From contig CALSCQ010003055.1 in NCBI GenBank assembly GCA_943704525.1, positions 1 to 41,360 on the forward strand: a stretch of DNA of 41,360 nt. The letters run 5' to 3'. Below are positions 8,043-41,360 of the stretch, piece after piece (positions within the stretch are counted from its first letter, which is position 1; each line of letters begins with the position of its first letter). Position numbers and translations under genes: made by a program. This DNA comes from Pigoraptor vietnamica (lineage: Eukaryota > Opisthokonta > Filasterea). Below the pieces are notes generated by a model. That model saw nothing but the letters and a program-made list of their open reading frames with translations. It was not told the origin of the DNA and did not search any database.

Positions 8043-11000
8043 ATGGCGCCCGCGGCAGCAGCCAAGCCAAAGGCCAAGCTGGCCCCGGTGGGTGTTGGGG
8101 GTGGGGGGGACGTGGGGCGCGGACGGGGTGCCAGTGCATGGCGGCGCTGTCTCCGTTTGTGGTCGCCTGGTGTTTGTGCGCGTGATCGTGGGCGGTGATG
8201 CTTGAAACGCATGTAAACGAGGCTGTGTGGGTTGGGTGAGGATGGTGTGACTGAGTAGAGGCGTGCCTTACGCGTGTGATGCATGCACACAGGCGGCCGC
8301 GGTGGCTTCCAAGTCGAACATTACGAAGAAGGCGACGCTCGTGTCGATGAAGGATGACAAGACGCGGGCGTCGCGCGCGTCGTTTGGCACGGCCCCGGAG
8401 GACGAGGCGCACCCGGACGCCATGGGCGACGACGCCTTCGACGACCAGTGGCTCCAGGTGCGTCCCAGAGGAGGCTGTGTGTCTGTCTTTGGCTGGTGGC
8501 AGGTGTGGTTTGTCTATTGCCGTTTGCAAGGACCATTGAGCTGGTTTGTGCGTGACTTGCGGTTGCTGCGTGCGCTGTGCTGAGCTACGGCCGCGCAGCC
8601 CAAGACGCTGCTCAAGCCCGAGGACCAGCTGGAGCTGACGGAGGAGCAGCTGAAGGAGGACTTCACGCGCATCCTCAGCGCGAACAACCCGCACGCCCCG
8701 CAGAACATTGTGCGCTTCAGCCACAAGGAACAGGTGTACAAGCTCGCGCCCGCCATCGACCAGACGGCAGTGCACTTTGAGCTCGAGGGGTACATGCTCC
8801 ACAAGGGCTCGGACGAGGCCAAGCGACAGCTCACCGCGAGCGGCGTCGTCACGGCGGGCGCGCAGGAGGTCGCCGTCGAGGGCGCTGCCCCGGATGACGA
8901 CGGCGGCGATGGGGATGGGGAGGCTGCGCACGCGGGCGGTGAGGCTGCGGGCGCTGGGCCGCGCAAGGAGCACGTGCTGCGCAACCAGTTCAACTTCAGC
9001 GAGCGCGCTTGCCAGACGTTCAACAACCCTCTGCGGGACCGCGCGACGTCGACCGAGCCCCCGCCACGCGCCAACTTCAGCGCGACTGTGAATCAGTGGG
9101 AGATTCACGACGCGTACGCGGAAGACCAGCAGCGGCAGGCGCAGCTGAAGGACAAGAAGGCGGCGGCCGTGCCGAAGGGCCCCGGCATGAAGGAGGACGA
9201 GAAGAAGAAGAAGCTGACGCAGGTCGAGACGCAGACGGAGGACGTTGTGCACAGCGCGGCGATGCTGCGATCGGCGAAGATCATCGAGCGCATGGTGAAC
9301 CAGAACACATTCGACGACATTGCCCAGGACTTCAAGTACTGGGAGGACCAGTCGGACGAATTCCGCGACAACGAGGGTGCGTGCCGCGCGCTTTCGGCAG
9401 ATTGTCTCTGTGCGGCATGGCGTGTGTGGGTGTGCTTGTTGTCTCCGTGCAGATGTGTGGGTGTGTGACTGATGCCTCACGCGCGTTCCCCACTGCAGGC
9501 ACGCTGCTGCCGCTGTGGAAGTTTGTGTACGACAAGGCGAAGCGCAAGGCGGTGACGTCGCTGTGCTGGAACCCGCAGTACCACGACCTGTTTGCGGTGG
9601 GCTATGGCTCGTACGACTTCAGCAAGCAGGGCCCCGGCATGATCTGCGCGTTCACGATGAAGAACCCCTCGTACCCCGAGTACGTCTTCAACACGGAGTC
9701 TGGCGTCATGTGCCTCGACTTCAACCGGCAGGTGTGTGGCATGCGATGTGTGCGATGTGCGATAACGTCCTTTTGAGGGGCAGTGTGAGCAGAGATTCTA
9801 TCTTCGGTGAATTGCGCTTCATGGATGTATTTTGTGTGTACTGAATCTGTGCATTGCTTCGGCGAGCGCAGCATCCGTCGCTGCTTGCCGTGGGCCTCTA
9901 CGACGGGTCCGTGGCCATCTACAACGTGCAGGAGAAGACAACAAAGCCCATGTACCAGTCGACGGCCAAGACGGGCAAGCACACGGATCCCGTGTGGCAG
10001 GTGCGTCGGCACTCACTGTTCCTCGCGTGTGTGACTTTGATTGAATGACCTGCTGTGTGCGCGTGGTGCGACGATGTGTCCGTGCTGACCGGACTCCTTC
10101 CGCCCGCAGGTGTACTGGCAGGAGGACGACATTGACAAGAACCTCAACTTCTACTCTGTGTCGTCAGACGGCCGCGTGACGTCATGGACGCTCGTGAAGA
10201 ACGAGCTCCACTACAATGTGAGTGGATGCGTCCATTGCAGCAGCGTGGAGGCAATGGGACATCCCAGCGCACGCCGGTACTGACGGTACTCTCTTGTTTT
10301 GCGCCTCAGGACGTGATTGAGCTGCGGCTGGACGACGGCGCGGCCGAGGGCGAGGGCGGCGAGGAGGGCGCAGAGGGCGAGAAGGCCGACAAGGACAAGG
10401 CCGAGAAGAGCGAGAAGGCGCCGGTGTCGACGCGCGCGGACGCGGCTGCCGGCGAGAAGGGCCTCGTGGAGGATTCCGGGATCTTTGGGCTCGGGTGTGG
10501 CACGTGCTTCGACTTCAACCGTGCGAACGACCACCTGTTTATTGTCGGCACGGAGGAGGGCAAGATCCGCAAGTGCTCCAAGGACTACAGCAGCCAGTAC
10601 CTCGAGTCGTACAACGTGAGTGCGGCAGCGCATGCCCCTTCCATTTGCCTCTGTGTTTCGTTTTGCGATTCGCTGAGCCGCCGACCGCTCTGTTGCGCAG
10701 GCGCACCAAATGTCCGTGTACTCGGTCAAGTGGAACCACTTCCACTCGCGCGTGTTCCTGTCGTGCAGCGCGGACTGGACGGTGAAGGTGTGGGACCACA
10801 CGCATCCCGCGCCCATCCTCTCGTTCGACCTCAACAACGCCGTCGGCGACGTCGCGTGGGCGCCGTACTCTGCGACCGTCTTTGCGGCCGCTACGAGCGA
10901 CGGCAAGGTGTGCATGCGCGGCGTGGCACGTGTGCTGTCGCTGTGTGCAGTGCTGTTTTCGAATCGTCAGTTTTTTTACTGTGCGGCTGTCGGCTGACCT

Positions 11001-11545
11001 TGGTGTGATGCGGCGGTCGGCTGACCTTGGTGTGATGCGGCGGTCGGCTGACCTTGGTGTGATGCGGCGGTCGGCTGACCTTGGTGTGATTGGCGCTGCA
11101 GCTGCACATTTACGATCTCCACGAGAACAAGCACGAGCCGCTGTGCGAGCAGCAGGTCGTGCGGAAGGCCAAGCTCACGCACATTGCGTTCAACCCGCAC
11201 TTCCCCATCCTCATTGTGGGCGACGACCGCGGCGGCGTCACGGCGCTCAAGCTCTCCCCGAACCTCCGCAAGGCCCTCAAGGTGCGTGGGTTTGTCTGCT
11301 GTTGCCTGCGTGCTAGTACTAGCAGTACAGAACCCCTGTGTGCTGGCTGTGGCACGTGCGCTGACGTCATGCGCACAATGCAGGAGCCCCGCTCGTCGAC
11401 GGACGACGAGGTGGCCAAGATGGACCGCCTGCTCAACGCGCACGCCACTGAGAAGCCCGCGGACGCCGCCGCCGCCGCCGCTGCCGCCGAGGCACAGCGG
11501 CAGCAGCTCGAGGCTCAGAAGGCGAGCGAGGAGGCGGACAAGTAG
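8043..11545 (+). CDS. DNAI1: Axonemal outer-arm dynein intermediate chain (DNAI1/IC1 type)
   Basis: WD-repeat intermediate chain that scaffolds outer-arm dynein heavy chains on the axoneme. Ten exons: 8043-8087, 8293-8457, 8599-9376, 9499-9731, 9872-10000, 10110-10217, 10310-10615, 10701-10907, 11102-11281 and 11384-11545, giving 770 residues. Diagnostic motifs: '[20 protein letters not shown]' before the propeller, 'GTLLPLWKF', '[20 protein letters not shown]', '[17 protein letters not shown]', 'GCGTCFDFN', '[15 protein letters not shown]', '[13 protein letters not shown]' and '[16 protein letters not shown]'. Low-complexity acidic inserts occur at about 150-175 and within exon 7 (Glu/Lys/Ala-rich). 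The C-terminus is an Ala/Gln-rich helix. It proves a motile flagellum or a recent flagellate ancestor. It is convergent with the acyl-CoA synthetase gene 128 bases downstream. Confidence 0.96.
10991..11090. repeat. 27-base minisatellite, four copies, in a DNAI1 intron
   Basis: The unit CGGCTGACCTTGGTGTGATG plus CGGCGGT starts at 10991, 11018, 11045 and 11072. The copies are essentially identical, the last being partial. They sit in the intron 10908-11101 immediately before the acceptor. The identity of the copies suggests recent expansion. The direct unit is purely tandem with no spacers, so it is not a CRISPR array. Confidence 0.95.
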
Positions 11546-11673
11546 GCGTGTGCATTGCGTGGCAAAAGAAAACAAGCGTTGGCACTGCGCTCGCTGCGTT
11601 TCGTCGGTTCTGTATAAAAAACAAGAAAGGGAAGAGCGGACTTCTTTGATTCATTTTCAGATTAATGCGTGCC

Positions 11674-13989
11674 CTAGTGCCGCGCCTTTGTCGCGTGCTG
11701 GCGGTGCTCGTTGTGCCTGTGCTTGCCCTGGAGCAGCTCTGCGCTGCGCTCGCGCATCTTGAACTTCTGCACCTTGCCCGTCACTGTCATCGGGAAGGGC
11801 TCGTTGACCACAATGTACCGCGGCACCTGCGTCGCGCAAGACATTCGTAATACAGTCGCGGCAAGGCAATTGTCTGGTCGGCAACAGAGTACCCAACAGA
11901 CGCGTGACGCAGTTGTGACGCAGTTGGGGATCCCCACAAGCAGACACAGCCATCACGCACCTTGTAGTGCGCCATGTGCTCGCGGCAGTACCGCACAATC
12001 TCGTCGCGCACGGCCGCAAGCGTCGCCTCGTCCTCGCCCTCCACGTCCGCCACGTGCACCCACGCGCACACCTGCTCGCCGTACTTCTCGTCCGGCACTC
12101 CAATCACGGCGACGTCGCGCACCCGCCCGTGCCGCGCAATGACGAGCTCTACCTCCGCCGGGAAGATGTTCTCGCCGCCCCGGATAATCATGTCCTTGCA
12201 GCGGCCCACAATGCGGCAGTGCCCGCGCGCCCCCGCGTCGATCGAGGCGAGGTCCCCCGTCCGCATCCACCCGTCCACGATGCTCTCCGCCGTCTGCTGC
12301 GGCTGGTTCCAGTAGCCCGCCATGACGCCGTAGCCCCGCGTGTACAGCTCGCCCACCTCCCCGCGGCGCACCGTCCGCCCCGTCGCGCGGTCGACCACCT
12401 TCGACTCGACGTGCGGGTGAATCGTGCCCACCGTCTCGCAGCGCAGGGAACGGTCGTCGTCGCGCTCCGTCTGGAACGACACCGGGCTCGTCTCCGTCAT
12501 GCCGTAGCAGATGGTGAGCTCGCGCGCGCCCATTTCGTCAATGACGCGGGCCATGAGGTCCGGGGGACACGCGGCGCCCGCCATGATGCCCGTGCGCAGG
12601 GCAGGGTAGGCGCCGCGCTCAAACGACGGGTGCGACACGAGGGCGTGGAACATGGTGGGGACGCCGAGCAGCGCCGTGCAGCGCTCGTTGCGGAGAGCGC
12701 TCAGCACACTCGCGGCATCAAAGACCTCCGCCGGATAAACCATGGCGCCTGCAAGGGAAGGGGTGGAGTGACACGAGGGGAGGCAGACGCATTAGTACAG
12801 TGAGAGCAAGCAGGCGCCGTCGTGTGGCGACGATGTGTGTGCACACGCACTTGCGTTGGTAATTGCGGCGAGGTTGCCGAGCACGAGGCCGAGGCAGTGG
12901 TAGAGGGGCACGGGAATGCACACGGCGTCGCGCGACGAGAGGTCCATGCGGCGGCCTGTCATGTATCCGTTGTTGAGGGTGTTCGAGTGCGTCAGGGAGG
13001 CGCCCTTGGGAAGGCCCGTCGTCCCACTCGTGAACTGCACGTTCACAATGTCCGACGGGCTGAGGTGCGATTCGGCCGCGCGCACGGCGGGGTCGACGGC
13101 GCCGGCGAGCAGCGTGTCGAAGGCAATCGTTCCAGGGAGCGACTTTGGCCCCGCGACAAACACGTGGCGCAGCGACGGCACGCGCTCGGCCTGCACGTGC
13201 GTGGGCCGCATCGCGCCAATGTTGGGGATGAGCGTGGAGAGGATGGCGCCGTAGTCGGACGTCTTGATCGTCGGCTTGAGAACAAGGCCCTTGCAGCCCA
13301 CCAGGTTCAGCGCGTGTTCGAGCTCCGTCGCGCGGTACGCGGGGTTCACCGTCACAAGCACAACGCCGATCTTTGCGCAGGCAATCTGGCAGAGCACGTA
13401 CTCGTGCATGTTGGGAAGCCACACGCCGAGGCGGTCGCCGCGCCCATATCCCATGCGGAGCAGTCCCGACGCCAGCAGCTCGGCATTGTACTGCGTTTAC
13501 GCGCCAATGAGATGCGTGGGCATGTGCGCTACACATGTGAGTGCTGTTTAGTGTGCGCGGGTGTTGTGAATGTGTATCCGAGTGTCTGAGGTGCGCGTGC
13601 AAGCGCTTGTGCAGCGTGCGGGTACAATTCGCCGCGCAAAAGAATGAGACGGGTCATGCAGAAGAGCGCGTTTCTAGAGTGCATCTCAGCGCCACAATCA
13701 ACTCGCTTGCCTTGAGGTCGCTGTAGGTCCACCGCACGCCCTGGTGCACGGACACGAGCGCAAGCGCGTTCGGGTGTGCCGCGGCAATCGCATCAAATTC
13801 GCCGCCGATGGTGCGCGTGAGGAGCGGCGGGTCGAGGGAGCCGCGCACGTGCGCAAGCGCGCGGTCCAGTGCGCCCGCCGTCAGCGCAGAGGCATAGGCG
13901 CGCGCGTGGGCTGGGCGGGCACTGCGGCGGGTTGCAGCGCCCAGGTGAAGGGCCCACCGGCGAAGAGCAGTGAGCGGCTGCATTCGCAT
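11674..13989 (-). CDS. ACSF2: Mitochondrial medium-chain acyl-CoA synthetase, ACSF2-like
   Basis: ANL-superfamily enzyme that activates fatty acids with ATP and CoA. Exons on the complement: 13989-13711, 13490-12851, 12748-11961 and 11826-11674, giving 619 residues (human ACSF2 about 615). The N-terminus is Arg/Ala-rich with no acids (MRMQPLTALRRWALHLG...), a good mitochondrial presequence. Motifs in order: 'GDRLGVWLPN', 'VNPAYRATELE', P-loop 'FTSGTTGLPKGA', 'PLYHCLGLV', 'YGMTETSPV', 'GWMRTGDLA', 'GRCKDMIIRGGENIFPAEVE', and the C-terminal catalytic lysine in 'MTVTGKVQKFK'. The intron 13491-13710 needs a GC donor (AAG/GCAAGC) to keep the frame 'SDLK-YNAELLASGLL'. The gene is convergent with DNAI1. 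Confidence 0.93.
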
Positions 13990-15129
13990 GGCCTCCGTCT
14001 GTGTTGAGTGCCTCTGTGGGAATGTGCGCGTGTTTCATGCGGGAAGGGGCACTCTCCATGTTGCACGCAGCCCCCTTTATCTGCGCACTGTCTGGACACA
14101 CCGCCATGGCTGTTGAGCAACCGGGTTCATTTCTCTCGATGAGTCAACTCACACGGCGTCATGCTCGTCGTGCAAGACCCACGCAGGACAAGGCATTCGA
14201 TGGCTTGCTTTGGGGCTGTTGTTCAATGAGACGACCCGAAATATCGCGGGCATGGCATCCACCAGACCCGGCACCCCCCACCCCCCCACAAACACACACC
14301 CGGCCGTCCTCTGTCCTCCGTCCCAGACATCCGCATGTGAGGATGCGCACTCCTCTCTCCTCGACCATTTGGTCACCGACCCACACAGAGAGTCAAGGCG
14401 TCGACGGTGCGACGCCCAGATTGATTGAATCGGCACAACTGTATTGTCTCAGTCTGCGCAAGCGTCGAGCTGCACACCGCCCTATGGGCTGCAACGAGCG
14501 TCGTTTGCGACCGCAGCCTCGCACACTGCGCACCTGGTCGTGCCCTCTCAAAACTCGGGACGTTCACAGATGGCCGAATGGCGGCCAAGCCTGACGCTCC
14601 AAAAAGGCAAGTGGAGGCTCGCCAACAGCAAGGCCCAGCCTTCGCCCCACGCCCCAACAGACCGATGCAGCGTCGTCCAACGGACATTCGCGGCATCTCG
14701 TCCACCTTTTACCTCGCAGTGTCAGCATCTTTGGATTTTCCGCACTGCCTGCGCACACCCACTGTGCGCGTCACATCGCAGAGAACCGGCCTTGAGGTGG
14801 TGTGGCCTCATCGGCCGCTCTGATTGGTCCGTGGGATGCGCGCACAGCCAATCAGCGCACGCCGTTCGTGGCACGCGACCGCACGTCGTCACGACAAATG
14901 CACACACGCCAGAAATTGAACACACGCACATTCCGTGGGAGAACACGCCACACACGCACGCGTGCATGCGAAAGCAGCGCATCTCTTTGCGATTGGAGTG
15001 AAAAGGGTGCGCAGACAGTGGAAGGGCGTGCGAGCAGGTGGCAGATGCGCCGTATGTGTGCCTAGAAGAACCCAAATTTTAAAAATTCAAATTGGCTACA
15101 ACGGCAACTTTGGGGCCTGACGTCGTCCT
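13990..15129. promoter_or_regulatory. Divergent promoter region, ACSF2-like / IQM-A
   Basis: About 1.1 kb between divergent start codons. Several open frames exist (for example 14001-14594) but they are Pro/Arg/His-rich and unlike known proteins. Candidate control elements are an inverted CCAAT box (GATTGGTC, about 14821) and CCAATCAGCGCA (about 14850-14861), the latter shared with the germ cell-less promoter. GGCTACAACGGCAAC, 20-40 bases upstream of the IQM-A start codon, is one base off an X-box. No RNA gene is recognised. Confidence 0.4.
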
Positions 15130-16192
15130 ATGGGTGAGTCTCGCTATTTGTCCCTCCCCATGTTCTGCCGTGCGCTTCACTCACCGCGCGCGTCTGTTTG
15201 CGCTACCGCAGCGCCTGCCACGGCGGTCCACGCGGACGTCGGCGCCCATGCCAGCGGCGCGCACTCACCGCGGGCTCGATGCGTGCACGAAAAGCACACC
15301 CTTGAAGTGGCCGACCCAAAGTACGTGCACGCCCTCTTCCCGTCCGTATTCTGCACTTTCCACGCACCTCAAGCAGCCCTCTGACAGTCGTGCCACTATA
15401 CCGCAGACACCGCTACGGCAAGCACTTGGCACACTACCGGTCCCTGTGGGCGGCGAGCGGCTGCCCAGGTGACTTTTTCCAGTGGCTCGACTGCGGGGCC
15501 GGCGCCGGCGTCTCGCTCCCTCATTTGCCGCGCGCGCAACTCGAATCCTGCCGCGTCGTATATCTCAGCCCCGCCGAACGGGAGGTGTGTGCTTGTTATG
15601 CTGAGAATGCCGCTCTGTTGCGTGTGGCTTTTTTGTTAACATCGCGCACTTGCAGGCGTACCGCGTGTCCGTAAGGGGCGGGCGGCTTGTCTTGCACCGC
15701 ACCGGCGCGCCTTTTGGGTCCGCCGAGTCGTCAACCAAGGCCATCTTCGTGATGAGCCCGAGCGGCGAGCTGTACGCGGGGCTGAAGGAGGTCGGGCGCT
15801 TCCACCACTCGAGCTTCCTGTGCGGAGGGGCGGTGAAGTTTGCGGGGACGTGGTCGGTGCGGCAGGGGGTGCTGCTGGAGATTGGGCCGCACAGCGGGCA
15901 CTACCGGCCGACTGCGGCGGACCTGCTTGGGTTTCTCGAGTCGCTGGATGCGGCGGGGCTGGACCTTGCGCAGGCGCGGCTGAGCGTGAAGGAGACGTGC
16001 GTGAAGAAAGAGGTGGTCGTTGGCGGGCTGAGCTTCACGGGCGTCCACGGCAACACGGCCGCCGCACTCCTCGCGCGCTGGCGGCGCTTGACGCGCGGTC
16101 GCAGGGAGAGCGAGGCCGATGCGGTTGTGCCAGAGCCCGACGAATGGTCGCTGTCCGTGCCGGCAGACGACGAGCCGGCCTATGCAGTGTAG
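15130..16192 (+). CDS. IQM-like domain protein, copy A
   Basis: Exons: 15130-15133, 15212-15320, 15407-15584 and 15656-16192, giving 275 residues. The core resembles the plant calmodulin-binding IQM family: 'DPKHRYGKHLAHYRSLW', 'FFQWLDCGAG', 'VVYLSPAEREAYRVSV', 'GRLVLHRTG', 'IFVMSPSGELYAGLKEVGRFHHSSFLCGGAV' and 'GPHSGHYRPT'. No IQ calmodulin-binding motif is visible in the short N-terminus, so calmodulin binding should not be assumed. The first coding exon is only four bases (ATGG) before GTGAGT; it is chosen because it restores an in-frame Met. The last exon contains a 340-base tract almost identical to copy B on the opposite strand. Confidence 0.8.
15743..16082 (+). repeat. Inverted duplicate tract, arm A
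   Basis: These 340 bases inside the last exon of IQM-A match the reverse complement of 16634-16973 with only five mismatches that I count, about 98.5% identity and no indels. Outside both edges the paralogues diverge sharply, at protein and DNA level, within the same exon. Confidence 0.93.
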
Positions 16193-16484
16193 TTGTCTAG
16201 TGAGCTGCGTGCTGCGCGTGGCGTGCGTGCGATGGGCGCTTTCTCTCCGCGCATCTGAGGCTGGACCCGTGCGCGTGGGCTGTACATAGTAAAATAACAC
16301 ATACAGAGAATGAACTCAGCCACTCGCACTGCCAGTGCATAATGCATAATGTTATTTCACAGCGACAAAAATCTGCGCAACGCGACGCGGAGACGAGAGA
16401 CGGGAAACTATGTACACATTGCAAGAGCACGCGGCGACAACGCAATAGCAGTTGCGTGGAACGACACGTCAGCGCTTGCGATCC

Positions 16485-17847
16485 TCAGCTCATCTTCCCA
16501 ACCTCTACAGGCGAGGGCGACCCGCCGTTCGCCTCTTTTCGTTGCCCGCGGCGTACGCGGTCCGAACGTGGAGAGGCCGGGGCGGCCCCGCGCTGCAGCT
16601 GCGGCGAATGGAGGCGCTCGTGGTCGTTGTTGTGCCAGCGCGCGAGGAGTGCGGCGGCCGTGCTGCCGTGCACGCCCGCGAAGCTCAGCCCGCCAACGAC
16701 CACCTCTTTCTTCACGCACGTCTCCTTCACGCTCAGCCGCGCCTGCGCAAGGTCCAGCCCCGCCGCATCCAGCGACTCGAGAAACCCAAGCAGGTCCGCC
16801 GCAGTCGGCCGGTAGTGCCCGCTGTGCGGCCCAATCTCCAGCAGCACGCCCTGCCGCACAGACCACGTCCCCGCAAACTTCACCGCCCCTCCGCACAGGA
16901 AGCTCGAGTGGTGGAAGCGCCCGACCTCCTTCAGCCCCGCGTACAGCTCGCCGCTCGGGCTCATCACGAAGATGGACTTGTTCATGCCATCGACCGTGTC
17001 GAAGAGCGCACCCGAGAGATAGCGGTGCAGGCGGCCGTTCTGAATGACTATGCGGTAGGCCTGAGGGGGAAGAGAAACGTCGGGTTCGGTTTCAGTATGA
17101 AAAAACTACAGACGTTTGCCCATCGACTTCGCTGGATAAGAGGCAATTGGCATCCGCACACAGGGACACGCAGAACACTGCCGAGACAAGCGACTGTCGC
17201 GGCAGCAGCCATCCCCAGTGCACAGCGCACCTCTCTCTCCTTGACGGTCAAGTACTTGACCTGGCTCTCGTCGAGGTGCGCGCGTGTCACGCCCGCAATC
17301 TCCACGGCGCGGCCAGGCCCCCAGTCCAGCCACTCAAAGAAACCCCCGCTGCCCGAGCCGACGCCCCGCGCCGCTGGCGACGCGCCCTCCGCAAGGCCGT
17401 GTGGGGACGAGTGCGGCTGCTGACCGGACCACAGCTCATAGTACGGCATGAGTAGCTTGCCGTAGCGGTGCCTGTGGGTGACATGCCGGTGAGTCAGTGA
17501 GCTGGAGATGAAGGACTGCTACGGGGATCGATGCCTGCTACACATTCATGCGCCGCGATTCGCACACACGCTGACTCCCCCGCCTCTCTCTCTCCTGCCC
17601 TGGTGGAGTCGATGGACACACGTCTATGATTTAGGCTGATCCGACATCTCCCCTCCCCTTCAGCCGCCACCGTCATGCAATGAGGAAACACGAACAAAAG
17701 ACCAACATAGGGCCACACAACGCACAACCATTGACGCAAGCTGCCAAACGCCGTAAACAACACACGCGAAAGCACAGCCCTACCGTGGGTCCTCTGCTTC
17801 AAGCCAGTGCTTGCCGTGAAGCCGCTTGCAGCTCGCATTGGACGCTT
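16485..17847 (-). CDS. IQM-like domain protein, copy B (5' end unresolved)
   Basis: Supported exons on the complement: 17847-17784, 17471-17231 and 17060-16485, with matching phases. They encode 'LHGKHWLEAEDPRHRYGKLLMPYYELW', a Gly/Ser-rich insert, 'GFFEWLDWGPG', 'VKYLTVKEREAYRIVIQNGRLHRYLSGALFDT', then the tract shared with copy A. The segment 'KHWLEAEDPRHRYG' is closer to the plant IQM consensus than copy A is. The first exon, expected to end in phase 1, was not found; it should lie between 17848 and about 18700. The C-terminus differs completely from copy A after 'LLARW'. The two genes are tail to tail, with stops 292 bases apart. Confidence 0.75.
16634..16973 (-). repeat. Inverted duplicate tract, arm B
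   Basis: Partner of 15743-16082 in inverted orientation, with a 551-base spacer between the arms. Together they could form a large hairpin or cruciform, and they are a substrate for intrachromosomal gene conversion. Confidence 0.93.
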
Positions 17848-31531: not shown

Positions 31532-31603
31532 TCCCACGTAGTCTAAACGGTTAGGATACACGGCTTTCACCCGTGAGATCCGGGTTCGATTCCCGGCGTG
31601 GGA
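31532..31603 (+). tRNA. tRNA-Glu (UUC)
   Basis: A 72-base cloverleaf without an intron. Acceptor stem TCCCACG/CGTGGGA pairs perfectly, anticodon stem CACGG/CCGTG encloses loop CTTTCAC with anticodon TTC, and T stem CCGGG/CCCGG encloses TTCGATT. Box A (TAGTCTAAACGG) and box B (GGTTCGATTCC) are good. CCA is not encoded, as expected for a eukaryote. Confidence 0.96.
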
Positions 31604-31654
31604 GCCCTACGTCAACTTTTTTTTTTGGGAGCCCTACGTCAACTTTTTTTTTTT
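31600..31654 (+). repeat. Tandem repeat of tRNA 3' end plus Pol III terminator
   Basis: Two adjacent copies (31600-31626 and 31627-31654) of GGGAGCCCTACGTCAAC followed by 10 or 11 T. The first begins in the last four bases of the tRNA gene. Each T run is an efficient Pol III terminator, so transcription should stop after the first copy. The unit could be a simple duplication or a footprint left by insertion or excision of mobile DNA at the tRNA 3' end. Confidence 0.93.
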
Positions 31655-32198: not shown

Positions 32199-35100
32199 AT
32201 GGCAACGGCGCAGCCGGCGCGGCCGTCAAGTGCAGCGCACGTTGCTGCCGCCGACGAAGCCGCCGAGTTTGCTGCGGCCATCAATGCCTGCCTCAATGAG
32301 GGCATCGGCCAGGGTATTCTGCGGATCGGACTTACGCAGACGCACCGCACAACGGCCTCAGCTCGGCGCAGCAGTTGACAGCTGAGGGTGGCATTAGTGC
32401 CTTGGTGGGTGCCGACGTAGATGGCTGCGTCGACGGTGTGGGGGTTGCTATCGCGGTCGAGGGCGGCGATGCGGCCGCGGACACGGCTGCCGATGCGCCG
32501 GCTGTGCTCAAGCTGGTCCGCGAGCTGTGTAAGGGCGATTTGAAGCCAACCGCGTGGAAGACCATGCCTGAACAACACGGAGAGGGCACGTAAGACCATC
32601 GCAAGATTGGTCGCTGCGGCGGTGCTGCCGGTGCTGTGGCCGGCGACTGCGGCCTATGACGACGACGACGACGAGCGAAGGCGACGCGCCGGCGCCGGGT
32701 ACAAGCTGCACGCTGTTGGCGAGTCGGGCGACGGCGCAGTTGACGCCGTGGCGGATGAATTGTGTCGGGACCGCTCTTTGGCGAGTACGCTAACCGAGAA
32801 GAGCTTCCTTTCGGCGACGCGTGCCGACCTCGAGAAGCTTGTCGACCGTGCTGCGGCTGCGGCCGCGGCCGCCGTGCCGCCCCCGCCGCCGGCTGTACGC
32901 GCTGTCGTGACGGAACGTCGCCGGGCTGCCGCCAACTCGGCTCTTTGTCGCGCGCAGTTTTTGTGGCTTATCCGCCTTCACGCGAGCGAATTTTTCGAAA
33001 CGGATCGCGGAGCGATGTACACGGCGAACGTTATGCGCTGGATGAGCGACGAGGCTGCCGTCGAGGACGAGGCCGCTGTTGCGCTGGTGCTTGCGTTCGT
33101 CCTGCTTTCTGTGGGTGGATATGGTGGCGAGTGCGAAGAAACGGCTCACCGGCATGTTCGCGCTTGGCTGCGCAGCAGTCAGGGCCAGCCGCTCCGCGAT
33201 GGTGGACTGCCGACTGCCGCGTCGGACACGTCGACGACGCCCGCGGACGTTCTAGTGTCAATGCAGAGTCTGTCGTGGACGGAGGAAGTTGTCGCCGGTT
33301 TCGTGCGGGCTGTTCAACCTGTTCCGTCGCTGTCTTCGGCTCTCTGGGGCAAGGACGCCAGCAACCAGGAGTTTGCGCAGCGGCCAACGATGGCAGGAGT
33401 CATTGCACATTTCATCGCTACTTGCCCCGAGTCGGTTCTCGCCGAGTTTGTCGACGATGCCATCGACAGGGCCGTCGTCGGCGAAGGCGGCCGCGGCGAA
33501 ATGGGCGACGAATGTGGCACGGTTGACCACGACGACGCCAACAGTTACTACGATGCATATTTGACGGAAGAACTCGCGATGTGCGATGCTGCGGTGCCAC
33601 GGGCATGCGCAGCCGCGTCTGCTGTCACCGGCGGCGGGCCGTCGTCCAATCAGAATGGCATCGGCGGACGAGGTGGCGCCCTTGAAATTCTTCGGGAGCG
33701 CGATTCGGACTTGTGGAACCTTGTTGACAAGCGTGCGGCAGATACCACGAAGCGCTGCGGTGAGCGTGTTGCCGTTGTTGGCATGGCTGGGCGCCGGCGA
33801 ACTTCCCGTGCCGGCGGCGGCGGAGCTGGTGGCGAGGCCGTGCCAGTCACGGCGGCTAGCGTTGGAAAGACGATCGTTGACTTTCGCGACACTCTACGCG
33901 CCATTCATCAGCACAAGGACGTGTCTGCCGCTCGCGCTCGATTCGTGTACGTCATGTGGCTGGCGAAGACGCGGAACCTCTCCGTGGACTCAGCTGGCCG
34001 TGTCGTGGTGACCGCCGCACTGTTGCGCGGCTGGATCTGCGCGATGCTGCACCCGCTGATGCTCGGGTTTGCGGTGTCGACGACGCGCCAGTACCTCAAC
34101 AGGCTGCGGACGTCGGGGCTCTTGGTGTTCGACTCGAGCCTAGTTCCTTCGACGATCTCGCGATTCTTCGCCAACTGCATCAAGCGGCTCGATCGCACCA
34201 CGGCCGAGACCGAAATCAATGAGCGGCAGCTGTCATTGACGCTCGCGACCGTGGCTGGGGTGGCGTGCAGCATCATACTCGGCTTTCTCGAGGGCGTGCG
34301 CTGCGGTGTTGACGCGGTTGAGCGTGCGTTGACGCTGCTCAGGGCGGATGCCGGCAGTCCGTCGAACACGGAGGTGGCGGCTCTTCTGCGCATGATTGCA
34401 GATCTGCACGGAACACTTGCGCTGGCATCGCGCCATCTCTCCCGCGTTCGCGCTTGCGCTCCGGCTCTTCAGGAATGCATGGACGCACTTGCCGCAACGC
34501 TTGCGGGGTCGCCATCGTACGCTGAGCCGCCGGTGGACGGGCCGGCGGCCTCACTTGCGGACTCGCCTGATCGGCCTCCTCGACGTCCACCCTCCCGGGC
34601 ACTTCATGAGGCAGAGGCCTGTGTGGCGTCCGGGTGCGCGCGCTCTGCTCGCTGCATCCAAGTCCTCGCGTACGTCACGATTCTTTTCGAGACAAACGTG
34701 CGCGGGCGGACGCTCTCGGCTCTTCGTGTCGGAGATATTGTCCCGGAAATGAGCATCCATGGACCTGCGTTGCGCATTCACCTCGGTCGCGAGAAGACGG
34801 CCGGCTTGTTCGAGGAGCGTGGATTTGTGCTGCTCCGGCACCTCTCTGAGGATGACCTCGCGGCGTCCCCCTTCGGCCGTGACATCGACGACCTGTGCCC
34901 ATATTGCAATGTGGCGTGCCTTCTCGCCGCCCGTGGCGTTGTGCGCCCGGCCCCGGCGGCGGCCGCCGCTCAGCAGCAGCGGCAGCGGCGGCCTGTTGAT
35001 GTCGGCGCCGGTGGGGCCAGTGACGGCGGCGTCGGCTGTCCGGACCGAGCGGCTGTCTGCGTCACATGTTGTTTGAGGTTGTGCCAGAGCGGGCGCGTGA

Positions 35101-38100
35101 CCTTTTGTTCATTGGAGCCCTTCCGCACGACGATCCCTCGCTGGCACTCTCAACAGTGCCAACGGCGGAGGCAGCAGCAGCACCCGAGGCACCATACATG
35201 GCGCGTTATTACGACGCCGCTCGTGCGCGTCCGCCTGAAGACGAGCTCGCAGCTTTGCGCGACAATCGGAACAGGGGCATTTTCTTGTCGGACGAACTCC
35301 GATATGCCGCCGCCTCCGTCGGGCTCGGTGACTACCGCGTCGGCATTTTGTCGTTCCGGCATGCATTCGCCACGCATCTCGTGTTCATGCGGTTACTCGC
35401 ACAGCGCGATGCGGGCCAAGTGCCATCCCTTAAGGCATCAGTCGATTACGTATCGCTACTCGGCCATTGGGCACGTCTCTCTTACATCATCACGAAGCAC
35501 TACCTTGCCGGAACCGGCGGCGTATGGATGAACGTGGTAGGTCTCACATTTATTTGACCGGAGTGTTCGGCGGTTTGTCTTTTGTCTGTGGGCCTCTGCC
35601 AGTGTGTACATGTGTGCGCAACGTGCAACGTGCATGTGTTTTTTTGTGTATGTTGTGGTCATGCAGATCAACACAGTCGGTTATTCAGTTAATATATGCG
35701 TGTTTGCCAGTGTGCCCGTGTGTGTGACATAGTGCTGTGCCGTGACTGTGTTTGTGTGTGCCGTAAGTGTGGCTGTGTGTTTGGCCTGTACCGCCGTCAG
35801 TGCTTCAGCCGGCAGTGCCATCACCAGTGTCATTGGATTAGGCTCCGTGTGCTTTTTTCTTTTCTTCTCTTCTTCTTTCCTTTCCTGAGTTAGCATTGTA
35901 ATTAACACTCCGTGTTCTCCATACTTTCGTTTTCAGCTGCTCCCCAACAGCTCGACCTTGCGGGCACGTACCGGGAATCCTGCTGACGCGTCGGCTGAGG
36001 ATCCCGAGGCAGTGCTTAACTCGACAGGCGACCGAGCGATCGCAGCGGCGGCGGCCATCTGCAATCGCAGGATTCGGGGCTTCGTTGACGACGTGGCCCC
36101 ATTCCCGAGCATCCCTCCCAACCGCCGCTCTGTCGCCGAAATGGCCGCCGCCAGGGCGATCGAGCGCAAGGAGCGGGTGGCACACGCAGAGACTTGCCCG
36201 TCGCTCCTCCTCGGCACGGGAGTGCCTGCCGTCGGCGTCAACCATTCGGACAACTTGGTCATCGATGGCACCGACTCGTTCAGCACGCGCAGGGGCGTGC
36301 GAGCAGTAATGCTTCGTAGGATGCAGGAAGCTGTTGCGGTGCATGCGGCATCCTCGGACGGTCAGCCGCAGTCGCCTCTGCACGGGCCGCCAGCTCGCGA
36401 TGACGACCGAGACGGCGGCGGCACGGGAGGGACTGAGGGAGGCGGAAGGGCTGCTGGCGAGCCACTGCAGCACGAACATGGCAGATCTAACAGCGGATCG
36501 GCGGCTGCCATTGGGGGTGAAAGCCCCGAGGAGCGTCTCGCTTTCCTTCTCGGAGGCGATGGGCAGGCGATAGTGAGCGCTGTGAGGACTGTTCTCGAAT
36601 TGGCAGGCGGCCATGTCGACGTGAACGGAGCCGCTGCCGCGGATGATGGGCGAGGTGCCAGCGACGTCGACGGATTTCATGTCGAGTTTGACGACGGGAA
36701 CAGCCCGCCTGACGATCTTCGCGAGTGGACGGTCGTTGATGTCCTTCGTCTCGCGGTAGCGTGTGGGATCGATGCGAACAGTCTTGATGCGGGAGCTGCC
36801 CGCCGTTCAAGTGCGCAGGGCTTGCGGTTCTTTAGCGCGTCTGACGGACAGGCACTCATCCGTCGGTTCGTCAGTGTCGACGCCGAGAACGAGAGCACAA
36901 TCGGCACGTTCGACGATGCGCGTAGGGTACTGTTCCTCAAGGCGGGCGGCTTGGGATGCCTTCTTCCGGGCGAAGTACTGTCATGGCTATGCGTTGCCGG
37001 GCACGAAAATGCGGCCACCGCGCTCGCCATGTCGGACGGTTGGCGAAGCAAGACCAGCTGCGGCAGTGTTGGCGGCCTTAACGGCGAGGTGCTCATAACG
37101 GATTTTTCGACGGCCACCAGTTGGCGAGCTCTTCGTGGCATATCGTACGTGCAGGCGGACGTGTTGGCCAAGGCCGTCGTCGAAGGCACTCCTCTCGACC
37201 GGCGTCTCTTGCGCGATGCAGTCCATCAGCAGCCGGCTACTGCTCAGCCACCCGCGGGACGTGCGGCTGACGACATGGAGTCGACAGCTGCCGGCGCCGG
37301 CGCCACCAGCAACACGCTCGGCAGCCATGCCTTCACGAGACAAGAGCGAGAATTGGAAGGGGTGTTGGCATCATACGTGCATAAGAGCCGTCTCGAGACT
37401 GCGCGGGCGCTGCACCTGTTCATCATTTACACCCGGATCCTCTTCAAGGCGGAAAATGATGGGCAGGAGGCCAGCAAAGACGTCTCCCCGTTTCCCATCC
37501 GTGATCCCGAGGTGCTTGGGCTCTTCTGTGCCTTCCTGAGACACGAGAGTGTCGGAGGGTGAGTGCTTGTTGATGGTGCGGCATATTTGGCACGCGCTGC
37601 GCTTTTTACTGTTTGAGTTATCATGTCCATTCTTCTGTCTGTCCTTCCGGGCTTTTTGTTTGTTTATTGTAGCTACATTATTGCTGATTATTACCTTCCC
37701 TCTCCCTGGTCCACTAATGTCCGAATGCATCCCCCCCCCCCCCCCCCCCCCCCTTCTCCCCAGCGCAACGTACGTGTATGGTACAAGGATGTACCAGCGT
37801 CTCACGACGTTTGTGGTGAAGAATGCAGACGTCACGCTCGGTCCGGAGGTCGACCCCATCGTCTTTTGCGCGAAGGCCAACGTCCCGTACCGCCGCGCCA
37901 ACCTGAAGATGGGGATATCGTTCCCCTTCAAGGCGCCCCCCCTCACGGACGACCTCCTCCTTCTCCTGTGCCACGCTGCGGACGGCTCTCACCCTGCCGA
38001 CATCCGAGATCGTGCGATTCTGCTCGTCCTGTCGGCATTGTTCGGTCGCGTGACCCTCGCCACGACTCTGCGGTATGCAGATATATCGTTTGCCACATCA

Positions 38101-40722
38101 CACGAGGACATGCTCTATCGCGCGATCGACGAGCCGCACTTATCTGCGACCGCTCGACGGATGGGCGTGTCGTTTGCTCAGGAAGAGGCAGCCGCGGCCG
38201 CTACTGCTGTGGCTGAGCGGCGCGGAGCGCCATGGACAGGGTACTTGAGGCTCCGCGCACGCGACGAGAAAGTTGTCACGGGCAATGACTGGCAGGGGCG
38301 CGACGTGACGGTGCCGTTCCGCGTCGGTGACAAGTCGGACGATGCGCGTACGAACGTCGGGCTGGCTCTCTTCGACTGGTTCGCGCTGACGGGGGCATTT
38401 GTGCACCCGCTGCCGGAGATCATCGCGGGGACAAAGCCCCCCGACATCCGGCCCGATTACGCGGACCTCTATGTCTTCTGTCCAGTGCACGGGGCGCCCG
38501 GGGCAGAGGCAACGATCAATGTTGGCATGGCACTCACAACGCACGATGCGTCGAACTCGCTCAAGCTGTTGGGGGACCGCCTGAAGCAGGACCCTGTCCT
38601 GGGTGCGGCCCCTTCCGTCCAGCAAATGGATCCCGCGACGCTGGTGGAGTCGTCGGCCCGGCCGGGTGCAACAACATGCTCATTTTCTGCGGAGTCGCAC
38701 GGCCCAGACGGCGTGCGGCGCAGTCCAGAAGATGTGCGGGAAGGTCTCGCGGGCGGCGGAGGGTGGGATGACATAGACGGCGCCATGATGCGCTACATCC
38801 GCGAACGCATTGCAGAACTGCAGGACGCTACGGGGGCGATGTTTGGCACGCAATTGCGCGGGGGACCGCTGGCGGCGACGGGCGGACGCCTGCCCGAGGT
38901 GGTCGCTGCGATCGAGTGTATACGCCAGTCGCTCCAGCGGCCGACGGTCGCGCCGCATGTGTGGACTACAAGCGTGCGCGGTGGCGTGAATGCGCTTCGC
39001 AAGAGGGGCGGCGCCTCCAATGCCGCGCCGACGGCAGGGGACGAGTCGGACCAGGATGACGCCGGTCCGGGCGGCGCCGACGATGACGAGGACTGCGGCG
39101 GAGCAGGCAGCTATGAGCGGTACGATGCCGAGAACAGCGGGCTGAGTTGTTGTGGGCCGTGCAGCGTGAGTGAGGCGAGCGCGGTGCGGCTGAGGCTGAC
39201 GGACGAGACGATTCCGCCCTTGAGCTCGTTGGGTGTGCGGGCAGCTGCGTCGTCGGCTGCTGCGACGGCGACCGAGCTTGGCGGCGGCGGCGGCGGCGGC
39301 GGAGCTGGGGCGCAGGTGGCTCTGCGGCGGCCGTGCCTGCGAAAGGCAGAGTGCCCCGGGTGCGAGGGGGTCGTGTGGCTTCGCTTTGTGACGTCGCAGA
39401 CCGAGGCGTTGCTTGCGGCTGGACCGACGCGCGCCGTGGTGCGGGTTGGGGGCGCGCGGATGCGCGAGAAGATCGGGCACGTGCTGAACAAGCACAATGC
39501 GCTGGCGTGCCTCGACGCCGAGTACGCCGGGAGCGAGCGGGTCGTGTCGACGTGTGAGCACTGCAAGGCGGAGGGGCCGCACCATGCGCTGGGGGGGGTG
39601 ATGACGAGCGGGATTCTGAAGGTGCAGTCGCACGTGTGCGGCGAGTGCCGGAAGGAGTTTCCGCGGGTGGTGCTCGACCGGATTGCGCCGGCGAATCCCG
39701 TTGCGGCGGGGTTTCCGCGGCTCGTGGGGCCATGCCGGTGCGGGGAGGCGTCATGCCCTGGGATGGGGCTGGAGCGCGTGATGATTCGAGACGGGAGCGG
39801 CAGGGAGGCGGGGGACGTTCGGTCCGGGGTGAGGCCGCGGCGGCTTGGGTTTGTGTGCGTCTCTGAGCGGAAAGCGCGCACGTCGGTCGACTTGCCTGAC
39901 GGCACGGCGATGGATCAAGTCGAGGGCCTCTTTCGGCGGGGCATTTCGACGGCCAACGAGCGGCGGGCAATGATGGCCGAGTCGGCGAACCTCGTGAGTG
40001 CGGCGGCGGCGGCTGTCGTTACGGCGCCGTCGGCGCAGCCGCAGCAGTCGTCGCCGCTCGGGGACATCGTGTGCTCGTGGTGCCGTGAGGTGCGTGGCGA
40101 CCACAGGGCGGCGACGAGGATTTTCGAGAACAAGGACAAGGGGGCGGCTGCTGCCAAGATGCTGCTGCAGGGCTTCTACTGCGCGGCGGGCACGGCGTGC
40201 GGCAAGGGCTTTGTGGTTCGCGTGGACGCCGACGGGCCTGTTCGACCGCGGCCCTTTGACATTCCGCCGTGGGTGCCTGCCGACGGCCTCGTGGGGTGCA
40301 CGGTGACGAGTTGCCCACGCGGCGGCGTCAAGTGCAAGATGCGCTTCTCGAGCTGCCTTGCATTTGGACTTTCTGCGTGGCCGGTGTATGGGTTCCGCTG
40401 CGTGTCGGCTGATCGCAACCGGGTCGGACCCGTGAAGTTTCAGATGCTCCTCGACTCGGAGCCCACGAGCTGGGAAGAGTTTGTCGCGCGGCCGGTGCCC
40501 TTTACGTTCGCGAGGGAGGTGCCGGACTGCGTGCGTGCGCCGCTCTTGTCGCAGCAGGGATCTGAGGATCAGGGCCAGCGCCGTGCGGTCGAGTTGCCAG
40601 CTGCTGCCGCCGGCGCTGGCGCGTTGTCTGTTGCGACCGTGGCCTGCGGCGGAGGCCAGAAGCGCGCCCGGACTGACGTGGGTGTGAATGTTTTGCGCTT
40701 TGCTTACTGTTGTTGTGGGTAA
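32199..40722 (+). CDS. Giant protein with two tyrosine-recombinase-like modules
   Basis: A candidate start is ATG 32199. The main blocks are 32544-35536, 35937-37558 and 37764-40722. The introns 35537-35936 (phase 0) and 37559-37763 (phase 2) join them in frame, for roughly 2,600 residues. Module 1 has a helical core-binding-like region (about 33860-34150), box I Arg (34701-34703, 'TNVRGRTLSALRVGDI'), Lys (34794-34796, 'REKTAG'), box II Arg (35357-35359, 'FRHAFATH', with Leu at the usual first His), His (35465-35467, 'LLGHW') and Tyr (35501-35503). Module 2 spans the second junction: 'GVLASYVHKSRLETARALHLF' and 'FCAFLRHESVGG' lead into 'PLTDDLLLLLCHAA' and box I 'FGRVTLATTLRYADI' (Arg 38047-38049). 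Its box II looks degenerate ('THDASNS', 38539-38559) and no Tyr is clear. The tail has many Cys pairs. Coding signal changes frame near 32350, 32590 and 35020-35095; small introns, frameshifting and lesions cannot be told apart here. Two separate genes are the alternative. Confidence 0.65.
35537..35936 (+). other. Intron between module 1 and the linker exon
   Basis: It starts GTAGGT and ends in CTTTCGTTTTCAG, 400 bases, phase 0. It is visibly poorer in GC than the exons and contains T- and TG-rich stretches. If unspliced, the module 1 frame stops at 35557, 54 bases after the putative catalytic Tyr codon, so intron retention would make a stand-alone recombinase. This is a possible two-product switch. 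Confidence 0.6.
37559..37763 (+). other. Intron inside recombinase module 2, with poly-C tract
   Basis: It starts GTGAGT and ends CCTTCTCCCCAG, 205 bases, phase 2. It is T-rich and carries a run of about 24 C just before the acceptor (about 37730-37753). Splicing joins 'FLRHESVGG' to 'ATYVYGTRMYQRLTTFV', which restores a continuous core-binding-like domain; this is the best evidence that the two exons belong to one gene. Confidence 0.75.
39300..40420 (+). other. Cysteine-rich C-terminal region of the giant protein
   Basis: After an acidic, Gly/Ala-rich linker the protein shows repeated Cys pairs: 'CPGC' (about 39350), 'CEHC' (about 39553), 'CGEC' (about 39640), 'CRCGEASC' (about 39735), 'CSWC' (about 40071), 'CAAGTACGKGF' (about 40180) and 'CTVTSCPRGGVKC' (about 40300). 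Their spacing suggests several zinc-binding units, possibly for DNA or RNA binding. No named zinc-finger family fits by eye. Confidence 0.5.
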
Positions 40723-41360
40723 TGCGCAGCCATTGCATGCATACTGTATGGCCGGTGCGCACAATCAGACTGAATGCGTGTGAATGTTATGCAACCTGAT
40801 GCGCGCTTTGAGAGCGCCAGTGCCATATGTGTTGTGTGAGCGTCGCGTGCGTGTGAGCGTGCGTGTGTGTGTGTGTGTGTGTGCGTGAATGTACTTGTGT
40901 GCAGAGTGTGTGCGTGTGAGTAACACTACTTGTGCGTGAGTAACACTACTTGTCAAGGGCTCTAAGAGGGGGTGCGCCACTCAAAATTTCTCAGTATGGG
41001 CCAACTACGAGGCTAAAGTATCCGCGGCCTCGAAAGTGGTAACATGATCACCATGTCATTGGACAGTAATAACGAGAATACCATTTATGGTATATGTCCA
41101 TTGGACAAAATGATGCATTATTTATTTTCCTCGAAAGTCGATCTGTAACTCTCACCTTGCTGTGCATGTGAAAGTGCCTCACGTGACCCTTTCACGTGAC
41201 TGGGACCGGTCGGCCGGCAGTTCCCTTATTTGGCACCCGGCAAAGGGGTGTGGCCGTGCTACGTGGCACAGGTTGTGATACGGCGTTAGTATCGTGCGCG
41301 TTTTGCGTGTGTTTGGGAGCGCGGCGCTCCTGCGTTTTGCGTAGATCTGTGATGCGCGGC
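40723..41360. promoter_or_regulatory. Right flank with tandem, nested and palindromic repeats
   Basis: No gene is seen. A 20-base period duplication, GTGAGTAACACTACTTGT, occurs at 40916-40933 and 40936-40953. Next is a nested site: CCTCGAAAGT (41028-41037 and 41129-41138) encloses CATTGGACA (41057-41065 and 41099-41107), which encloses the perfect palindrome ATACCATTTATGGTAT (41078-41093). TGTCCA-T-TGGACA (41095-41107) is itself an inverted repeat. TCACGTGAC occurs twice (41179-41187 and 41192-41200). This may be an element end, a replication or recombination site, or the promoter of the next gene. Confidence 0.6.

Follow-up and report, generated by a model that had tools for sequence, protein, structure and literature searches.

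Our analyses lean towards the existence, in Pigoraptor vietnamica, of one spliced gene that would encode a single polypeptide carrying two tyrosine recombinase (YR) modules and a Cys-rich tail, and that would descend from an old tRNA-associated integrative element; we judge this reading to be somewhat better than an even bet. It starts from features established at the level of sequence, namely the presence of both modules, their identical order in two copies of the gene, the introns that the copies share, and the conservation of a catalytic R-K-R-W-Y set across diverged copies. The analysed DNA, hereafter the window, is the entire contig C1268 (41,360 nt) of an assembly comprising 32,526,649 bases in 1,395 contigs, and the layout of the candidate gene and its upstream neighbourhood is given in Table 1.

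Table 1. Positions in the window of the candidate two-module gene, its proposed exons and catalytic residues, and the adjacent tRNA gene
Feature	Positions	Strand	Remarks
tRNA-Glu(TTC) gene	31532..31606	+	ARAGORN; Rfam RF00005, 65 bits; directly upstream of the recombinase gene and in its orientation
tRNA-Glu 3' end plus T-run, 27 bp, present twice in tandem	31599..31652	+	repeat detection
Proposed 5' exon(s)	32199..32543	+	ATG at 32199; that frame meets stops before 32544; without homology support
Module 1, N-terminal part and first half of catalytic domain	32544..34943	+	open frame; Arg 34701-34703, Lys 34794-34796
Module 1, second half of catalytic domain	35063..35536	+	box II Arg 35357-35359, HW 35465-35470, Tyr 35501-35503
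Intermodule intron, phase 0	35537..35936	+	position and phase common to C924 (504 bp)
Linker, further domain and start of presumed core-binding domain of module 2	35937..37558	+	C566 49% identity, E=1.2e-44; C924 E=5.3e-6
Intron within module 2, phase 2	37559..37763	+	site and phase common to C566 and C924
Module 2, end of presumed core-binding domain and whole catalytic domain	37764..39009	+	Arg 38047-38049, Lys 38269-38271, Arg 38659-38661, Trp 38764-38766, Tyr 38794-38796
HDAS	38542..38553	+	upstream of catalytic box II (three-copy and Cre-family alignments)
C-terminal tail with many Cys pairs	39010..40722	+	C566 45% identity, E=1.7e-35

Elsewhere in the window, other reading frames match the proteasome, Rap/Ran-GAP, CNH, WW and AMP-binding families (five of seven window frames scanned); together with the introns, these matches point to a compact eukaryote. 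Two frames, at 15605-16192 (+) and 16485-17105 (-), share a long near-identical stretch, which by eye looks like an inverted duplication about 0.4 kb long. A 27-bp unit is repeated four times at 10982-11090 with 98% matching, and a hit to Rfam IRE_II at 8870-8900 (-), scoring 31.7 bits against a cut-off of 30, is probably due to chance.

Two further copies were identified when the window's own genome was searched for relatives of module 2, one on contig C566 (E 7.6e-99, 48% identity) and one on contig C924 (E 2.0e-29, 31%); in a three-copy alignment their module 2 sequences are 48% and 29% identical to that of the window, respectively. In the C566 contig, 33 bases precede the acceptor-like site at the module 2 exon, the upstream part of this copy lying outside the contig. 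Upstream of module 2 in C924 there is an open frame of 1,418 residues, to which pairwise blastp aligns each half of the window's module 1 (E 5e-6 and 8e-6). Genome-wide this module 1 link is weak: hits of the C924 frame on the window have E 1.7 and 3.1, and the module 1 frame of the window, used as a genome-wide query, matches itself only. The order from module 1 to module 2 is identical in both copies with a visible upstream part (window and C924). Over 406 codons of module 2, the window and C566 have 49% identical residues and show differences of 0.37, 0.35 and 0.57 at the first, second and third codon positions, which is, as judged from the codons, the pattern of a protein maintained by selection. 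Outside this genome, no relative was found at E<=10 among the approximately 8,000 candidates scored per search of 5.8 billion proteins, nor was any found in viral contigs.

Two other contigs were discarded as additional copies. The match to C1330 (E 0.38) falls in frames that look, as judged by eye, like a glycosyltransferase; when nine segments taken from the three copies were run through tblastn, none hit that contig at E<=1. C84 has in common with the gene only a domain lying upstream of module 2 (E 1.5e-7), its other tblastn matches being at chance level (E 0.14 or worse). This domain, which in the window precedes the core-binding part of module 2, is found at C84:15955-16275, where no recombinase was seen, and the presence of similar frames nearby suggests two neighbouring genes.

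The Cys pairs of the C-terminal tail look zinc-ribbon-like by eye. C566 has a longer tail than the window. In C924, more Cys-rich frames follow downstream, and 3' of module 2 a Cys-rich unit recurs as several diverged repeats (11112-17744 of the reverse complement of C924:6001-26000), so that the tail may have grown through duplication of such repeats. Frame changes were noted in two copies: one in module 1 of the window, at about 34.95-35.06 kb and without a clear intron (intron or indel), and one in the presumed core-binding part of module 2 in C924, to which no intron could be assigned. Given one such change in each, the window or the C924 copy might be damaged or misassembled.

The recombinase identity of both modules was assessed with two profiles, one comprising 82 Xer-type and other sequences and the other 16 Cre-family sequences, 40 other reading frames of this genome serving as decoys in the single-sequence tests. 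Against the Xer profile, module 1 (two copies aligned) scored 30.7, a value reached by none of 152 and none of 320 shuffles (maximum 28.4), and module 2 (three copies) scored 31.2 (0/152 shuffles), with box I in register in each case. The Cre profile matched module 2 at 48.9 over 220 columns, with 0/72 and 0/608 shuffles reaching that score (maximum 27.3) and a p of about 2e-8 from a Gumbel fit, and module 1 at 29.9 for the two aligned copies (0/72 shuffles) and at 34.4 for the window sequence alone (0/320). Among single sequences, module 2 scored 34.6 in the window, 29.9 in C566 and 31.9 in C924 on the same profile, on which four of the five single sequences (29.9-34.6) exceeded all 40 decoy frames (maximum 18.45) as well as lambda Int (26.3), XerD scoring 100.3. 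The fifth, module 1 of C924 alone, scored like the decoys on both profiles (16.0 Cre, 18.1 Xer). On the Xer profile only the window modules (25.2 and 30.1) rose above the decoy maximum of 23.6, below which fell C566 (22.6), C924 module 2 (16.0) and C924 module 1; furthermore, the reversed sequence outscored the real one for module 1 of the window (26.2 vs 25.2) and for module 2 of C924 (20.8 vs 16.0).

Smith-Waterman comparison with Cre gave a score of 66 for module 1 of the window (0/500 shuffles), the match including box I and the Lys, and was not significant for the remaining sequences, the score being reached by 23/500 shuffles for module 2 of the window, 220/500 for C566, 141/500 for C924 module 2 and 52/500 for C924 module 1. 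The C-terminal halves of the modules each matched one profile. That of module 1 placed its box II on R247 of XerD in the Xer profile (29.3; shuffle maximum 16.1, 0/100) and did not match the Cre profile (86/100 shuffles), and that of module 2 matched the Cre profile (32.9; 0/100 shuffles) and not the Xer profile (30/100). A recent duplication as the origin of the two modules was rejected, hhalign returning a probability of 0.1 and no significant mutual similarity.

In domain searches, no recombinase family appeared among the Pfam matches up to E 10, neither PF00589 nor a related model; no PF00589 match was found anywhere in this genome, and a PDB search gave no recombinase match. DUF3504/GCR1_C (Crypton-type YR) and DUF3435 (Starship captain recombinase) were likewise absent among the Pfam matches, as were, across the gene's four reading frames, the reverse transcriptase and RNase H of DIRS/Ngaro. 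This silence of Pfam, of the PDB and of the candidates scored from the protein collection would be expected if the gene encoded an unknown GC-rich protein with chance motif matches instead of tyrosine recombinases, an explanation that we consider very improbable in view of the shuffle and decoy controls, not all of which were positive, and of the two modules independently reaching box I in register.

Catalytic residues could be located in both modules, which bears out the proposal of two YR-like modules in tandem made in an initial annotation of this DNA. For module 1, to which it had given R, K, R, H and Y positions, a box I Arg, Lys, box II Arg, His-Trp and Tyr were located as in Table 1, and the Arg, Lys, Arg, Trp and Tyr are kept in both copies of the window/C924 alignment, the HxxR His position being occupied by Leu in the window and by Pro in C924. 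In module 2, Arg 98, Lys 172, Arg 302, Trp 337 and Tyr 347 (numbered from 37756) are invariant in the three copies, which have Ser, Gly and Gly at the HxxR His position. In the alignment of module 2 with Cre, SSARPGATT falls on HSARVGAARD (R292), GGW on W315 and the Tyr of MMRYIRE on Y324; the pairing of the Tyr was read from the alignment of the C-terminal half with the Cre family, and the Lys was assigned by an invariant DEK motif and a second alignment. The box I Arg and the catalytic Lys were placed in both modules, box II has its Arg in both and its His in neither, and the Trp and Tyr have profile support in module 2 only.

These alignments revise the earlier description of module 2, which allowed it a box I Arg but took HDAS to stand in place of HxxR and saw no clear Tyr. 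In the alignments HDAS precedes box II by 39 residues, box II retains its Arg, and the Tyr is the invariant one aligned with Y324 of Cre. Two other segments considered as box II of module 2, TTSVRGG (38970s) and GPDGVRR, were rejected because the profile puts box II at 38659, though the second Arg of GPDGVRR is also invariant. The suggested pairing of an enzyme with a pseudo-enzyme was consequently abandoned, since, of the two, module 2 matches the Cre family better over the whole domain, its R, K, R, W and Y are present in all copies, and it is no different from module 1 in having no box-II His; from its sequence, module 2 is probably not degenerate. We hold it distinctly unlikely that module 1 is the enzyme and module 2 a pseudo-recombinase serving for DNA binding or regulation only: the Ser/Gly/Gly replacement of the box-II His and the missing Xer-type match of its C-terminal half would fit such a role, but the five invariant residues, four of them (R, R, W, Y) in register with Cre, do not, and the same His is missing from module 1. 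In the available text of one study, Cre H289A continues to recombine at reduced efficiency and Flp H305A is blocked after cleavage (PMC4381057). Because the first of these mutants recombines while the second is blocked, loss of the box-II His leaves activity undecided, the behaviour of Cre H289A counting against the pseudo-recombinase.

The introns shared by the copies, together with a missing Met, constitute the main evidence for a single predicted polypeptide with both modules. The intermodule intron starts 11 codons past the Tyr of module 1, in phase 0, in both the window and C924, and the C566 contig has, at its opening, an acceptor-like CAG, likewise in phase 0. The phase-2 intron of module 2 occupies one site in the three copies, with lengths of 205, 260 and 163 bp, its phase in C924 being called in the reading frame that follows the frame change of that copy. 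Both introns join their exons in frame, as had been proposed, the first also in C924 and the second also in C566 and C924. It is likewise reasonable that the second junction rebuilds a domain, since this intron falls in the helical region before the catalytic domain, where the core-binding domain is expected. Past the acceptor of the intermodule intron, Met is absent from the first 68 residues in the window and the first 61 in C566, the conserved block of module 2 included; with no Met before that block in these two copies, the upstream exon is therefore needed.

Two genes arranged head to tail, or transcripts mostly ending in the intron, would instead yield two recombinases made apart, in the manner of XerC/XerD. 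In line with separate products, the seventh codon of the window intron is an in-frame stop, and an ATG is the second codon of the downstream exon in C924; the phase-0 intron position shared by two diverged copies and the absence, in the window and in C566, of any Met ahead of the conserved block run against them, and we rate this arrangement as rather unlikely. The claim of one gene with two modules thus gains support, the order and the intron position being the same in C924 despite about 30% identity in module 2. That both modules also lie on one transcript, as originally put forward, is suggested by one line of evidence, the conservation of introns in diverged copies.

The proposed start in the window is 593 bp 3' of the tRNA-Glu gene and on its strand, and the module 1 frame of C924 opens 1,996 bp 3' of a tRNA-Val (CAC) gene, again on the same strand; a same-strand tRNA gene is found upstream in both copies that have an upstream flank. 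A genome search for tRNA genes gave 59 matches among the 63 candidates scored out of 584, 16 of them on C295, which looks mitochondrial. The chance of a same-strand tRNA gene within 1,996 bp upstream of both genes is approximately 2e-6 with 43 nuclear tRNA genes and approximately 3e-4 if all 584 candidates were real, for a link noticed afterwards and at two loci. The tandem 27-bp copies at the end of the tRNA-Glu gene are suggestive only, as they may be an integration footprint or an ordinary tandem duplication, and an 18-nt genome search for that tRNA end (<=2 mismatches) found nothing beyond these two copies. No direct repeat of the tRNA 3' end was found at the far end in the window or in C924, whose contigs may stop short of it; no terminal repeats or distal att copy were found, and the flanks of the window had no convincing match with C566 or C924. 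Two abutting segments near the end of the window, 40955-41166 (also on C215 and partly on C648) and 41167-41360 (also on C49 and C568), were rejected as element ends, being separate interspersed repeats.

According to the available parts of the literature, tyrosine integrases in bacteria and archaea often use tRNA genes (PMC8371274), and in the compact genomes of dictyostelids tRNA flanks are targeted by several retroelements (PMC5006619). The gene would stem from an integrative element whose targets were, or still are, sites close to tRNA genes, and the gene copies in this genome would be old. A domesticated origin, in which recombinase-derived host genes would act in DNA binding or genome processing without mobility, is a lesser possibility that nonetheless deserves weight. 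It would account for the few, old and diverged copies, for the introns and for the terminal repeats not found, and it has a parallel in the domesticated Crypton genes described in the sections available of PMC3212892; according to the same source, domesticated animal Crypton genes lost the catalytic Tyr and the second Arg, which both modules keep here, and a position at tRNA genes fits integration.

Comparison with known systems brings out what is particular to the gene. Module 2 resembles Cre-type recombinases (P1 Cre, Dre): the alignment runs from the junction of the core-binding and catalytic domains as far as the Tyr, R173, R292, W315 and Y324 are matched, and a GGW box III is shared, but here there is no HxxR His, and there are two modules per gene, introns, a Cys-rich tail and a eukaryotic host. 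Tyrosine recombinases generally act as tetramers of separate protomers. In XerC/XerD, two different recombinases share the work on one site; they are encoded by separate genes, unlike the modules of this single spliced gene. Cryptons have a single YR, and RIT, Tn554 and GInt have more than one YR per element, encoded by separate genes in bacteria. The latter three are multi-recombinase bacterial elements (see PMC5385486). Cryptons (PMC3212892) are similar to the present case as YR-encoding eukaryotic elements that have at times been domesticated, and differ from it in that the present gene has no match to DUF3504 or any other YR model of Pfam.

The nearest design found in print is an engineered one. 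As far as the text available of PMC8776779 goes, recombinase designers link one monomer to another so as to impose an asymmetric site, and in RecF8, a coupled Cre-type heterodimer, a linker joins two monomers and forces heterodimers on an asymmetric site. The pair described here is similar in that two recombinases are joined, but it is natural, RecF8 being laboratory-made, and its modules are mutually dissimilar by hhalign. No natural fusion of two tyrosine recombinases was found in the portions available of open-licence PMC articles.

In the single-polypeptide reading that we favour, the two modules of one chain would each bind one half-site of an asymmetric recombination site, and two such polypeptides would form a four-protomer synapse, that is, a tetramer on two asymmetric sites, with the box-II His being dispensable or replaced. 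The pre-formed heterodimer envisaged in the initial annotation would then be possible, as a pair of two catalytically equipped protomers. That the gene represents a natural covalent pair, in which the integrase of a eukaryotic tRNA-associated mobile element has two different catalytic protomers in one chain and the recognition of asymmetric sites and the order of strand exchange are thereby built in, is advanced here tentatively, as a possibility that falls well short of even.

If true in RNA and protein, a naturally linked recombinase pair would be an unusual design, and the natural fused pair would represent evolution's answer to the problems of linker geometry and ordered strand exchange. 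Furthermore, the alignment of paralogues from the same genome corrected a likely misreading, revealing catalytic residues that had been overlooked by eye. The gene would, if these readings are true, add an extra lineage of eukaryotic YRs, unrecognised by the Pfam models scanned, and a possible tRNA-associated recombinase.
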